From NCBI GenBank assembly GCA_016926135.1, contig JAFGPH010000311.1:1-5892 (forward strand): a stretch of DNA of 5,892 nt, in the 5' to 3' direction. The DNA is from Deltaproteobacteria bacterium. Its GTDB lineage: Bacteria; Desulfobacterota; DSM-4660; Desulfatiglandales; HGW-15. This document shows positions 1,799 through 5,634 of this stretch, in pieces. Numbering within the stretch: the stretch's first letter is position 1; every line of letters starts with the position of its first letter. The position numbers were made by a program, and so were the translations under genes. The notes under the pieces are model-generated. The model was given only the letters and a program-made list of their open reading frames with translations, was not told the DNA's origin and did not search any database.

Positions 1799-1955
1799 GA
1801 TACTGTGATGAGATGGTTACTACGCATCGAAGATCCCAGCACCGAAAGTGCAGGTGCCGGTTACCCCGCTACCCCTTCCAGGTCCAAGGCCCGCACGATC
1901 CTCTCTGATGAAGTAAGAAGATAGTCCTGATAGTAATATTTTGTAATTTTTTTCC

Positions 1956-1984
1956 TTGACCCCATTGATTAGATCATTTATGAC
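1956..1984 (+). promoter_or_regulatory. Sigma-70-type promoter for the regulator-tup cluster
   Basis: TTGACC (1956-1961, 5 of 6 match to TTGACA) and TATGAC (1979-1984, 4 of 6 match to TATAAT) are separated by 17 bases, the optimal spacing. An AT-rich run (about 1929-1953) immediately upstream resembles an UP element. Transcription would start near 1990-1992, giving a short leader before the ribosome binding site GGAGGTG at 1998-2004 and the ATG at 2010. This is the best promoter in the window and probably serves the downstream tup genes as well, unless tupA has its own. Confidence 0.6.
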
Positions 1985-2009
1985 ATAAGGACTTCATGGA
2001 GGTGCGTTC

Positions 2010-2717
2010 ATGTCCGGAGACCTGATGAACACGAAAGAGGTGGCCCGATACCTGGGGGTGCACGAGAAGCAGGTATATGCCCTGGTGAAGGCCAAGAGGA
2101 TTCCATCGACGAAGTTCACCGGGAAGTGGGTGTTTCCGAGGAAACTGATCGACGCGTGGATCGAATCCCATGCCCGGTCCGGGATCGATCAGGCCAGGGA
2201 GAGGAGCAGGGATATCGAAGGGGCGCTTCTCGCCTGCGGGAGCAACGACCCGATCCTGGACATGCTCCAGAGCACTATGAAGAAGGCCCATCCTGAGTTC
2301 CTCATCCTGTCGGCCAACACGGGGAGCACGGAAGGGCTGAAGGCCCTCAACCGCGGCCAAACGGACCTGGCCTGGTCCCATCTGCTGGACCCCCAGAGCC
2401 AAGGCCCGGTTCCTGTCCAGGGGGGACAATTCGGGCACCCACAAGAAGGAGATGGACATCTGGAAGAAGGCGGGAATTCAACCTGCCGGGGATTGGTACG
2501 TCGTCACCAAGGCATTCATGATGGCCACCCTCAAGCAGGCCGACCAGGAAGGCGCCTACTTCATGACCGACAGCAGCACTTGGGTGGCGGCCAGGAAGGA
2601 AATGCCCAAGCTGGTGATCCTTTTCAGGGGGGACACGATGCTGGTGAACACCTATCACACCCTCTGTCAGCCGGAAGGCGCAACCCCGGGTCAGAAGACC
2701 GCCGCCAAGTTCATTGA
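2010..2717 (+). CDS. Truncated HTH regulator with partial periplasmic-binding-like domain, out-of-frame tail
   Basis: The ORF has 235 codons from ATG 2010, with GGAGGTG five bases upstream. Residues 6-52 form an excisionase/MerR-like HTH (HTH_17 type: MNTKEVARYLGVHEKQVYAL, then a GKWVFPRKLIDAWI wing). Residues 68-128 match the start of a cytoplasmic substrate-binding-like domain (PBP_like, PF12727 type): GALLACGSNDPILDML, ANTGSTEGLKALNRGQTDLAWSH... to DP at 127-128. Such proteins are one-component regulators that sense a small ligand, plausibly molybdate or tungstate given the neighbours. From about residue 130 the frame leaves family sequence: residues 131-235 are a glycine-, histidine- and arginine-rich tail that is the wrong frame of a TupA-like gene. 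Intact family members are expected to be roughly 300 residues, so about half the sensor is missing. The product, if made, could still bind DNA but hardly a ligand. I treat it as a broken gene; the confidence applies to the N-terminal family call. Confidence 0.7.
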   Translation: MSGDLMNTKEVARYLGVHEKQVYALVKAKRIPSTKFTGKWVFPRKLIDAWIESHARSGIDQARERSRDIEGALLACGSNDPILDMLQSTMKKAHPEFLILSANTGSTEGLKALNRGQTDLAWSHLLDPQSQGPVPVQGGQFGHPQEGDGHLEEGGNSTCRGLVRRHQGIHDGHPQAGRPGRRLLHDRQQHLGGGQEGNAQAGDPFQGGHDAGEHLSHPLSAGRRNPGSEDRRQVH

Positions 2718-2826
2718 CTTTGCAGTATCCGACGCGGGGCAGAAGATCATTGTCCAGTACGGCGCCGACAAGCACGGTGAAGGCCTTTACAACGATGCTG
2801 CATACGCCAAAAAATACGACAAGTAA
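2395..2826 (+). pseudogene. C-terminal half of a second TupA-like binding protein, N-terminus deleted
   Basis: In a frame offset from the upstream regulator, translation from about 2395 reads RAKARFLSRGDNSGTHKKEM and continues without a stop to TAA at 2824-2826. This corresponds to residues about 137 to the end of the intact TupA downstream (EAKAKFVSRGDDSGTHGKE). Later landmarks also match: DWYV at the hinge, a GAYFMTDSSTW block equivalent to QAYTLSDRGTY, and a C-terminal helix AAKFIDFAVSDAGQKII. It ends YGEGLYNDAAYAKKYDK, unlike TupA 2878-3783, and has WYVVTKAFMMATL where TupA has WYLSIGQGMGKTL, so it is a diverged paralogue rather than a recent duplicate. The signal peptide and ligand-binding N-lobe (TTTS motif) are absent. 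ATG 2452 has AAGGAG directly against it, too close for a good start, so independent translation is doubtful. Its original ligand is unknown, probably an oxyanion. Confidence 0.75.
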
Positions 2827-2831
2827 CGGGT

Positions 2832-2858
2832 CCGGGGCGGAAACACGACCCCGGTTTT
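2832..2858 (+). terminator. Short hairpin with T-run before tupA, possible attenuator
   Basis: CCGGGG (2832-2837) pairs with CCCCGG (2849-2854) around an 11-base loop, followed directly by TTTT (2855-2858). It lies in the 51-base gap between the TupA-like remnant and tupA, and just before the AGGAGGAG ribosome binding site of tupA. The stem is GC-only but short and the T-run is short, so at most partial termination is expected. Confidence 0.35.
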
Positions 2859-2877
2859 CAGCGAGGAGGAGAAAGAG

Positions 2878-3783
2878 ATGAAAACAAAGTTCAGCTGGAT
2901 CGTCATCATTCTATGTGCGGCACTTCTCCCGGCAGGCACCGCGATGGCCCAGGAGAAGGTCCTCAAGATGTCCACCACAACGAGCACTGAGAACTCGGGA
3001 CTCTTGAACGTGCTGCTTCCTGAGTTCAAGAAAGATACGGGCATCGACGTGAAGGTGTTTGCCAAGGGGACCGGCGCCGCCATCCGCGACGGGGCCGACG
3101 GCAATGTGGATGTGATCTTTGTGCACGACCAGCCGCGCGAGGAGAAATTCGTGGCCGACGGGCTGGGAACCAAACGCTACGCGGTCATGCACAACGACTT
3201 CGTTCTGCTGGGTCCTGCCTCCGATCCCGCCAAGGTGAAGGGTGTAAAGGATGCAGGTCAAGCCCTCAAAAAGATCGCCGAAGCCAAGGCCAAATTCGTG
3301 TCCAGGGGAGATGACAGCGGCACCCACGGCAAGGAGCAGGCGCTTTGGAAGGAGGCCGGCGTTCCTCTGGAAACCAAGACCTCCGAGATCGTCAAGAGCG
3401 GAAAAAAGGCTTCCCTCTCCTTTCAGCATCCCAAGGGGCTTGGGGAGTGGTACCTCTCCATCGGCCAGGGCATGGGGAAAACCCTCACCTACGCGGATGA
3501 GAAACAGGCCTACACCCTCTCCGACCGTGGAACCTACCTGGAATACAAGTACGGCAGGAAAGAAGGGCTTGGGTTGGAAATCGTGTCGGAGGGAGACGCC
3601 AAACTCTTCAACCCGTATGGGATAATTCCCGTAAACCCGAAGAAGCACCCTCACGTGAAGGTGGAATGGGCCGAGGCATTCGCCAAGTGGCTGGTATCCA
3701 AGAAGGCACAGGCCCTGATCGGCAATTACAAAATCCAGGGGAAGCAGGCATTCTTCCCGGATGCCATCCCCGGAGCGAAGTAG
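2878..3783 (+). CDS. tupA: Tungstate ABC transporter, periplasmic substrate-binding protein TupA
   Basis: The 301-residue product captures tungstate in the periplasm and delivers it to TupB. ATG 2878 is preceded six bases upstream by AGGAGGAG (2864-2871). A signal peptide spans residues 1-24 (basic start, hydrophobic core WIVIILCAALL, cleavage after AMA|QE), with no lipobox. The TupA hallmark TTTSTENSGLL is at 33-43, the class motif contributing oxyanion-binding Ser/Thr. VDVIFVHDQPREEKFVADG (77-95) and SRGDDSGTHGKE (142-153) are the other signature blocks, followed by GQGMGKTL (196-203) and a YTLSDRGTYL block at 212-221. Residues about 164-188 look like a roughly 15-residue insertion relative to compact TupA proteins. 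Next come tupB and tupC, completing the transporter. TupA proteins prefer tungstate over molybdate; sequence alone cannot prove that here. A 148-base structured gap to tupB may favour higher tupA expression. Confidence 0.93.
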   Translation: MKTKFSWIVIILCAALLPAGTAMAQEKVLKMSTTTSTENSGLLNVLLPEFKKDTGIDVKVFAKGTGAAIRDGADGNVDVIFVHDQPREEKFVADGLGTKRYAVMHNDFVLLGPASDPAKVKGVKDAGQALKKIAEAKAKFVSRGDDSGTHGKEQALWKEAGVPLETKTSEIVKSGKKASLSFQHPKGLGEWYLSIGQGMGKTLTYADEKQAYTLSDRGTYLEYKYGRKEGLGLEIVSEGDAKLFNPYGIIPVNPKKHPHVKVEWAEAFAKWLVSKKAQALIGNYKIQGKQAFFPDAIPGAK

Positions 3784-3800
3784 CGCTCCACGGAGGCGCC

Positions 3801-3863
3801 AGGTGCGGGGAGCAAGGCCTCGGTGCGATTTTGGTTGCATCCGGGTCCTCGTTTCCCGCACCT
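3801..3863 (+). ncRNA. Long intercistronic stem-loop between tupA and tupB
   Basis: AGGTGCGGG (3801-3809) is perfectly complementary to CCCGCACCT (3855-3863), and the pairing continues with G-U and A-U pairs into the loop. The interior forms a second stem: CGG-TGCGAT (3821-3829) with GTTGCA-t-CCG (3834-3843) closed by TTTG. The whole 63-base segment can thus fold into one long hairpin. No T-run follows, so it is more likely a 3'-end-stabilising or processing structure that keeps tupA mRNA more abundant than tupBC mRNA than a full terminator. It begins 18 bases after the tupA stop. The fold is read by eye and has not been calculated. Confidence 0.45.
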
Positions 3864-3931
3864 CAGCCCTCTATTCTTGAAAGACGGACGCAGCCGCGGG
3901 ATGGACTCACCATCCGGTGGGGTTTGACCCC

Positions 3932-4627
3932 ATGGACTTTTTCATCGACAGCTTCCTATCGGCCCTCCTTCTTCTGTGGCAGTGCGACCCTGAGGTCTAT
4001 TTCATTGTCTATGTGTCACTGAAGGTAAGCCTTGTCGCGACCCTCATCGCGAGCATCCTGGGTGTTCCCTGTGGGTTCCTCATTGCCCTGAACGAGTTCC
4101 GGGCAAAAAGGGCTCTCATCACCGTCCTGAATTCGCTTTTGGCCCTGCCCACCGTGGTGGTGGGTCTGTTCGTGTACGCCTTCCTCTCCAGGCGTGGCAT
4201 CCTGGGGTTCATGGACCTTCTCTACACCCAGAACGCCATGGTCATCGGCCAGGTGATCCTGGTGCTTCCCATCGTGACCACTTTCACCCTGGCTGCCGTG
4301 AGCCAGATCGATTCGAGGTATCGGAAGACCGCGCTGACCCTCGGGGCCACACCGTTTCAGACAGCGGCCCTGATCTTTCGGGAGGCCCGTTTCGGCGTCA
4401 TTGCAGCCCTCATTGCCGCTTTTGGGAGGGTGATTTCGGAGATCGGCGTGGCCATGATGCTGGGAGGCAACGCCAAAGGTTTCACCCGCACCATGACCAC
4501 GGCCATGGCCCTCGAGTACGACAAGGGTGAATTCATCATGGCCGTGGCGCTCGGCATCGTGCTCCTTCTGATCAGCCTCACCATGAATATTCTTTTCCGA
4601 TCCATCCAGGGGAGGAGTCGGGCGTGA
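3932..4627 (+). CDS. tupB: Tungstate ABC transporter permease TupB
   Basis: The product is a 231-residue inner-membrane permease that forms the translocation path for tungstate from TupA. I chose ATG 3932 (MDFFIDSFLSALLLLW), since GGTGGGG lies about nine bases upstream and TupB-type proteins commonly begin this way. An in-frame GTG at 3917 would add five residues and has a poorer upstream site. Hydrophobic segments lie near residues 23-53, 61-86, 102-124, 153-177 and 199-223. The binding-protein-dependent permease (EAA) loop is at about 150-178 (REARFGVIAALIAAFGRVIS, then EIG), the contact point for the ATPase. The block LPTVVVGLFVYAFLSRRG (72-89) is characteristic of the TupB/WtpB group and separates it from ModB. 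The stop codon overlaps the tupC start by four bases (GTGA), indicating translational coupling. Family call is strong; substrate follows from tupA. Confidence 0.92.
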   Translation: MDFFIDSFLSALLLLWQCDPEVYFIVYVSLKVSLVATLIASILGVPCGFLIALNEFRAKRALITVLNSLLALPTVVVGLFVYAFLSRRGILGFMDLLYTQNAMVIGQVILVLPIVTTFTLAAVSQIDSRYRKTALTLGATPFQTAALIFREARFGVIAALIAAFGRVISEIGVAMMLGGNAKGFTRTMTTAMALEYDKGEFIMAVALGIVLLLISLTMNILFRSIQGRSRA

Positions 4628-5634
4628 CCCTGTTCGAACTGAAGGATCTCACCAAGCGCTACGGCAGCCGGACCGTTCTGGCGCTTCCGTCCCTTCGCCT
4701 GGACAAGGGATTCATTTATTCCCTCCAGGGGCCGAACGGCTCAGGCAAGACTACGCTGCTCGAAATCCTGGGCTTTCTCATCCCCCCCAGCTCGGGCGAA
4801 ATCCGCTATGAGGAGAGGAAGATCGATTTTTACAGAAACGATCTGACATCCCTGCGCCGGGAGATCGTGATGGTTCCCCAGAACCCCGTTCTGTTCACCA
4901 CTTCGGTCTACAAGAACGTCGAACTAGGCCCCAGGATCCGCGGCGTGGCCAAAGGGAAAAGGGGAAGAATCGTCCATGAGTGCCTTGACCTCGTGGGCAT
5001 GCGCGAGTTTGCGAGCGCCCAGGCCCACAAGCTTTCAGGCGGCGAGACCCAGAGGATCGCCATCGCCCGAGCCCTGGCCTGTTCCCCGAAGGTGATCCTT
5101 TTCGACGAGCCCACTTCCAGCGTTGACGTGGCAAGCCAAGCGGCCATCGAAGGGATCATGAGGAATATCAACGAACGGAAAAAGATCAGCCTTGTTTTCA
5201 CCACCCACAATCCAGGCCAGGCATCCAGGCTTTCCCACCGGATGGTCAGCCTCTTTGAGGGGCGACCGGTCGCCTCGGCCTTCGGAAACATTTACAAGGG
5301 AGTGGGCCGCGTCGACAGCCAGGGAAAAGGGGTTTGCATCCTGGAGGAGAAAATCACCCTGCGGGTGAATGCGTCCGTCAGCGGCGAGGTCAGCCTGTCT
5401 CTAGATCCTACGAAGATCCGGATCTTAACCCCTTCGGACGGGGCGCCACAGGAAAACCGGCTGAGGGGCAACATCGTTCGGCTCGCGGATGAAGGCTCTC
5501 AGATCCTGCTCAGCGTGGACGTGGGGGTTCTTCTCAATATCCTCCTCCCCAAGACCGACGCGGCTGAAAGACCCCTCAGCCTGGGCCAGAAAGTGGAACT
5601 GTATTGCCCCCCTGAGGCTGTCCAGGTGCTCTAG
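4624..5634 (+). CDS. tupC: Tungstate ABC transporter ATP-binding protein TupC with C-terminal TOBE domain
   Basis: The cytoplasmic ATPase powers tungstate import through TupB. GTG 4624 overlaps the tupB stop and has GGAGG (4611-4615) eight bases upstream. All nucleotide-binding motifs are intact: Walker A GPNGSGKTT (36-44), Q-loop Q86 (VPQNP), signature LSGGE (137-141), Walker B VILFDEP (157-163), D-loop SSVD (165-168) and switch H195 (TTHNP). With 336 residues it is longer than simple TupC proteins of about 220-250 residues. Residues about 230-336 form an extra domain of TOBE type, as in ModC and WtpC: SLDPTKIRILT at 259-269, then NRLRGNIVRLADEGSQILLS at 278-297 and a terminal GQKVELYCPPEAVQVL. 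TOBE domains in this family bind the oxyanion and can inhibit transport when the cell is replete, so feedback by tungstate or molybdate is plausible. The alternative name wtpC/modC-like would fit the domain layout; the tupA-tupB context favours tupC. Confidence 0.92.
   Translation: MTLFELKDLTKRYGSRTVLALPSLRLDKGFIYSLQGPNGSGKTTLLEILGFLIPPSSGEIRYEERKIDFYRNDLTSLRREIVMVPQNPVLFTTSVYKNVELGPRIRGVAKGKRGRIVHECLDLVGMREFASAQAHKLSGGETQRIAIARALACSPKVILFDEPTSSVDVASQAAIEGIMRNINERKKISLVFTTHNPGQASRLSHRMVSLFEGRPVASAFGNIYKGVGRVDSQGKGVCILEEKITLRVNASVSGEVSLSLDPTKIRILTPSDGAPQENRLRGNIVRLADEGSQILLSVDVGVLLNILLPKTDAAERPLSLGQKVELYCPPEAVQVL

Follow-up and report, generated by a model that had tools for sequence, protein, structure and literature searches.

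A junction between the first part of a TaoR-like regulator gene and the second half of a gene for a TupA paralogue, hereafter TupA2, was located at positions 2397-2400 of the window, i.e., the whole analysed stretch of 5,892 bases, which is apparently a complete contig and encodes P0001 and P0241. The last regulator codon (AGC, 2397-2399) overlaps here with the first TupA2 codon (GCC, 2398-2400), both on the plus strand. With a probability of roughly 0.68 we read the junction as the result of one recent non-homologous deletion within an operon of the order regulator (TaoR-like) - tupA2 - tupA1 - tupB - tupC. Such a deletion would have removed the last 175 residues of the regulator, the spacer and the first 146 residues of TupA2, and would have joined regulator codon 130 to tupA2 codon 147 in the +1 frame, with what looks like about 2-3 bases of microhomology at the breakpoint.

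The regulator remnant occupies 2010-2399 (plus strand) and comprises, according to Pfam and alignments, an HTH_17 domain (residues 5-54) and the start of a PBP_like sensor (residues 90-130). It opens a chimeric reading frame of 235 aa (P0001; 2010-2717, plus strand), in which 130 regulator residues are followed by an out-of-frame tail of 105 residues. The HTH_17 domain (PF12728) was recognized in this frame with 54.3 bits (Pfam; cut-off 27, E 1.7e-14), and the excisionase-type HTH model TIGR01764 with 42.9 bits (cut-off 28.8). Of the sensor, only PBP_like profile positions 4-45 of 193 were matched, so the complete domain is absent; P0002, a regulator relative of 305 aa, has profile positions 4-192. 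This protein was the closest among the relatives listed, being 93% identical to the first 131 residues of the chimeric frame, and no closer regulator parent was found among the 17 genomes of the order of G305 or the 23 of its class, where nothing exceeded 76%. Among the best 119 of 1,911 matches, 117 regulator relatives were at least 300 aa long, the remaining two being of 276 and 227 aa. The regulator's own C-terminal half was matched by all 119, and in 117 of these the match covered at least 160 of its 175 residues. The 105-residue tail, on the other hand, matched none of the 359 proteins fetched (blastp, E up to 1). A sequence search of P0002 against the PDB gave no match. Its AlphaFold model, based on 18 sequences, was of low confidence (mean pLDDT 62.8, with residues 125-142 scoring under 50); at most it hints at a cut ahead of the strand formed by residues 148-161, and it was not used as evidence.

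The TupA2 remnant extends over 2398-2826 (plus strand) in the +1 frame relative to the regulator, and stops at the usual C-terminus. Its 142 residues correspond to residues 147-288 in P0123 numbering and matched positions 133-266 of 267 in PBP_like_2 (Pfam), as well as positions 124-250 of 266 in the NCBIfam TupA model NF041772 (69.6 bits, cut-off 400). The remnant is 84% identical to the end of P0123 (288 aa), from residue 147 of that protein, 84% being also the identity to the closest full-length TupA2 among the relatives listed. The signal peptide and the first half are missing, and with them the full-length two-lobe form. Inside the remnant lies an open reading frame of 124 aa (2452-2826, plus strand), of which P0121 is a one-residue variant. 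The motif AAGGAG directly abuts the ATG at 2452, the usual spacing being missing, and this ATG, judged from sequence, is a poor start. Most TupA2 relatives were at least 270 aa long (112 out of the best 119 of 2,918 matches, P0121 left out), and short Met-started TupA2 proteins occurred in other clusters too (P0159, P0180, P0196, and P0197). P0159, a Met-started protein of 151 aa with 10 member sequences and a longest contig of 18,389 bp, begins about nine residues before the junction point of the window. A TupA2 gene truncated at its 5' end, the second one in an operon of this type, was seen at locus L105 (3548-4060, G404:C283): its match does not begin until residue 117, an HTH_1 gene of 127 aa lies upstream, and matches to TupA1, TupB and TupC come after it. 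A similar broken junction was seen in another genome at L106 (4436-5517, G088:C52), where the TupA2-like match starts only at residue 112 and the gene is overlapped by an open reading frame with an N-terminal part matching Alginate_exp.

The position of the join was determined from both sides. When the window frame was aligned with ten longer regulator relatives, it stayed in register through ...HLLDPQS, with its last codon at 2397-2399; thereafter the ten relatives all have G, and the window has Q. From the other side, 13 TupA2 rows were fetched, from 12 distinct places (L001 and L045 coincide). In 12 of the 13 rows the tblastn match opened with the residue whose codon starts at 2398, in L006 with the fourth residue; GCCAAGGCC stood at the junction position in 8 of the 13. 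The regulator register and the TupA2 match starts together locate the join to within a few bases. The initial annotation had recognized the junction of an HTH regulator with a TupA-like protein, which the truncated domains on both sides bear out, although its position has to be shifted by one base; it was also right in that the two parts are in different frames, 2010 and 2398 being 0 and 1 modulo 3, respectively. A repeat, AGCCAAGGCC, had been pointed out as well. Its second copy is at 3282-3291 as described, whereas the first is at 2397-2406 and not at 2398-2407. Two copies were found in none of 200 shuffles. Since both copies encode the same TupA-like part, the repeat represents similarity between paralogues and not a repeat spanning the junction. 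Direct repeats of at least 14 bases within 1950-3850 fell into three families, none of which links the two sides of the junction. After the S codon the regulator relatives continue with a G codon, and the TupA2 relatives mostly have GCC AAG; going by these relatives and not by a parent sequence, the two sides appear to share about 2-3 bases at the join. An assembly collapse on a repeat, which had been offered as the artefactual explanation, is thus disfavoured, because the sides appear to have so few bases in common. The exact 31-base junction gave 0 matches in viral_contigs, as expected for a cellular gene.

Downstream of the junction the window carries a binding protein gene, a permease gene and an ATPase gene in this order at 2878-5634, with uninterrupted reading frames (PBP_like_2, BPD_transp_1, ABC_tran, and TOBE_2). 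They were recognized from reading frames, Pfam and NCBIfam as whole tupA (TupA1, a predicted tungstate-binding protein; 2878-3783), tupB (3917-4627) and tupC (4624-5634, with a TOBE domain), all on the plus strand. The tup names rest on matches below the NCBIfam equivalog cut-offs for all three products. The TupA model gave 242.8 bits against a cut-off of 400 and was the best match of TupA1; the TupB model gave 200.2 against 320 as second match of the tupB product; the TupC model gave 129.4 against 400 as seventh match of the tupC product, whose first match was WtpC, another tungstate ATPase model (154, cut-off 440). GC3 of the genes was alike, 0.75-0.84, and does not decide between a deletion and a chimera. 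Upstream of the tup cluster, a gene for a transporter of the TauE/SafE family (TSUP) was found at 676-1653 on the plus strand. TSUP transporters have been associated with tungstate/molybdate control in sulfate reducers. The intergenic stretch 1694-1808 contains a 14-nt palindrome and repeated CCGGA/TCCGG motifs, a composition which we take to resemble a REP-type element. On the minus strand, 2-223 holds the beginning of a gene that encodes a Schlafen AlbA_2 domain and is cut by the contig end. An Rfam scan at gathering thresholds gave no match.

The gene order in relatives was studied on a selection of loci. Of 395 genomes, 41 had the regulator (E up to 1e-80), and loci were taken for 30 of them; the TupA2 and TupA1 types were each present in 25 of the 395 at the cut-offs used for them, and loci were taken from 25 and 20 of these genomes, respectively. 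Altogether 112 loci contained 45 distinct regulator loci, defined by a match longer than 600 bp with an identity of 35% or higher, with 6 repeat rows left out. The next tup gene on the same strand after the regulator was tupA in 30 of the 45 and tupB in one, while 14 had none within the stretch. Five of these 14 were matches within open frames of 643-711 aa, which belong to different proteins containing a domain of this kind; of the remainder, some were near contig ends. Two tandem tupA genes after the regulator were observed in 6 of the 30 loci. Five genomes had the order regulator - tupA - tupA - tupB - tupC with a first tupA belonging to another paralogue than TupA2; the sixth, G318, had regulator - TupA2 - TupA1 - TupB - TupC intact. 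The G318 regulator (306 aa) has complete HTH_17 and PBP_like domains but is only 42% identical to P0002, and its TupA2 is of TupA2-type at 72%, with 294 aa and a 64-bp spacer after the regulator, both as called.

A TupA1-type gene directly followed TupA2 on the same strand at 14 of 41 distinct TupA2 places, among them G404, which is itself truncated, and L089, which has the window's own TupA1 group at 63%. With window-type regulators, taken as those with about 50% identity or more to P0002, TupA2 was the next gene at none of the 25 distinct loci with a tup gene following. In G205 the two types, a regulator at 71% and a TupA2 at 66%, were on different contigs, and the regulator was followed by another tupA and tupB. 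The TupA1-type search in the class of G318 gave 0 of 42 genomes at cut-off. TupA2-type genes with identities of 51-73% were recovered in the order of G279 (4/85) and in the order (1/12) and class (8/55) of G141, and no window-type regulator stood in front of them in the loci examined. As a whole, 2010-5634 is of mosaic kinship, the closest relatives of the regulator, TupA2 and TupA1 coming from different orders among the genomes searched. The initial annotation had proposed looking for relatives with an intact regulator, a tupA paralogue and tupABC in a row; the order exists in G318 but was not seen with a window-type regulator. Its single deletion, taking away the regulator C-terminus, the spacer and the signal peptide and first half of a second tupA, stands as the simplest reading, although the presumed starting arrangement, a window-type regulator beside an intact TupA2, was met in 0 of 25 loci. 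Homologues with the N- and C-terminal parts in one continuous frame, which would have spoken against the deletion, were not found: the TupA2 piece had blastp matches in 0 of the 119 listed regulators (best 119 of 1,911).

The same rarity gives some weight to an artefact of assembly or library preparation, in which two pieces of operons of the same kind, or pieces from two organisms, were falsely joined. The window is apparently a contig by itself, the adjacency of a window-type regulator and TupA2 was not seen elsewhere among the loci examined, and the different orders of the closest relatives of the regulator, TupA2 and TupA1 fit such an origin as well. We nevertheless consider a chimera rather unlikely. 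Short-read assemblers need more than 2-3 shared bases for a false overlap, and the bases apparently shared at the join would be too few. In addition, P0121 (124 aa, one residue different from frame 2452-2826) lies on a separate contig of 1,336 bp, so that a nearly identical remnant is present twice, which supports a real event without proving one. If collinear with the window, the P0121 contig should extend for about 200 bp or more ahead of the junction, because a near-identical TupA1 of about 220 or more residues was absent among the 120 matches listed. Judging by the usual behaviour of gene calling, the protein predicted there would have been longer had the gene been intact. The shortness of P0121 alone is no proof of the same break, because P0159, P0180, P0196 and P0197 are short, Met-started TupA2 proteins too, a fact that also leaves room for the chimera. 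Contigs of equal size, which do not prove identity of contigs, were found for TupA2 and TupA1 relatives in 4 cases, a number reached by none of 200 shifted controls. For the regulator and TupA1 there was one such match (4302), which argues weakly against a chimera, as 37 of 200 controls reached one; the first 60 relatives of the regulator and the first 60 of TupA2 had no equal-size contigs in common.

Two further explanations were considered. A crossover or gene conversion between two related binding-protein domains could have produced a hybrid sensor, since both genes encode periplasmic-binding-protein folds and full-length TupA2 relatives match PBP_like weakly (25.7 and 21.6 bits, below the cut-off of 27). 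In a weak profile alignment, however, the regulator residue opposite TupA2 residue 147 is 178, whereas the regulator part breaks off after 130, so that 47 regulator residues are skipped at the join; the frames differ, moreover, and a hybrid protein would need a +1 frameshift. We reject the crossover on account of these non-corresponding positions and the frame, and give it a very small probability. That cells maintain the shortened regulator and the C-terminal TupA2 fragment as functional genes is in turn very improbable. P0121 was predicted as a separate gene, neither remnant contains a stop or frameshift, and other N-truncated TupA2 genes exist; against this, full-length forms dominate among the relatives of both genes (best 119 of 1,911 and best 119 of 2,918, respectively), and the fragment has neither signal peptide nor first half, and an AAGGAG too close to its ATG for the usual spacing.

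Returning to the deletion within the operon, we infer that the event happened in the organism. The loss, estimated from relatives, amounts to 528 bp for regulator residues 131-305 with the stop, 438 bp for TupA2 residues 1-146 and ~64 bp for a spacer as in G318. The deletion would thus measure about 1.0-1.1 kb, in agreement with the roughly 0.9 kb or more proposed initially. Its age was approached by counting deviations at columns conserved in at least 90% of the listed relatives, in sets of 120 sequences including the window and leaving out P0121. Deviations numbered 3 in 86 such columns for the regulator half, 1 in 75 for the TupA2 half and 3 in 156 for the whole TupA1; 32, 83 and 46 of the 120 sequences, respectively, deviated at least as much. 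Neither remnant has a stop or frameshift of its own. As neither half is more decayed than its relatives, the deletion, if real, should be recent; an artefact would look the same.

The product would be a 235-aa protein with the DNA-binding domain and about a quarter of the sensor, probably unstable or ligand-blind. The TupA2 fragment, lacking a signal peptide, is not expected to function. With tupA, tupB and tupC intact, TupA1 should suffice to keep uptake going, and tup expression would no longer be adjusted by the truncated regulator, i.e., ligand control would be lost. The reading as a commonplace deletion that inactivates genes in an operon of known type appears mostly sound. A bolder interpretation, which we hold to be improbable, is that N-terminal loss of TupA2 beside the operon regulator is recurrent and selected: a spare binding protein would be discarded, here together with the regulator sensor, tungstate uptake would be constitutive, and a ligand-blind HTH stub may persist. 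If the deletion is real, the strain is a natural mutant whose TaoR-like regulator has lost its sensor while TupABC is whole, and could serve to probe tungstate homeostasis without TaoR-like control; otherwise the window shows an ordinary pseudogene pair. For automatic annotation it calls for caution, as the predicted 235-aa P0001 ends in 105 residues without relatives among the proteins fetched.

TaoR is said to repress tupABC when tungsten is plentiful, and we take TaoR and DVU3193 to be one protein. In Desulfovibrio vulgaris, tupABC (DVU0747:DVU0745) is regulated by tupR (DVU3193), according to PMC10102598, which cites Rajeev et al. 2019, and PMC11980592 gives HTH and PBP-like domains as canonical for TaoR, with HTH-17 in the TaoR-like form. 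The window regulator shares this HTH_17 and PBP-like architecture of TaoR-type regulators up to the junction, and it is likewise linked to Mo/W transport, with the tup genes lying downstream here. It differs in that residues 131-305 are missing and an out-of-frame tail takes their place; because of the junction, it has no complete sensor. Compared with TupA of TupABC, the TupA2 remnant lacks the signal peptide and first half, and stays far below the NCBIfam TupA cut-off. It matches the C-terminal half of the TupA model as well as proteins of 287-289 aa named tungstate transport system substrate-binding protein in one source, and is a paralogue of the whole tupA that follows it downstream.
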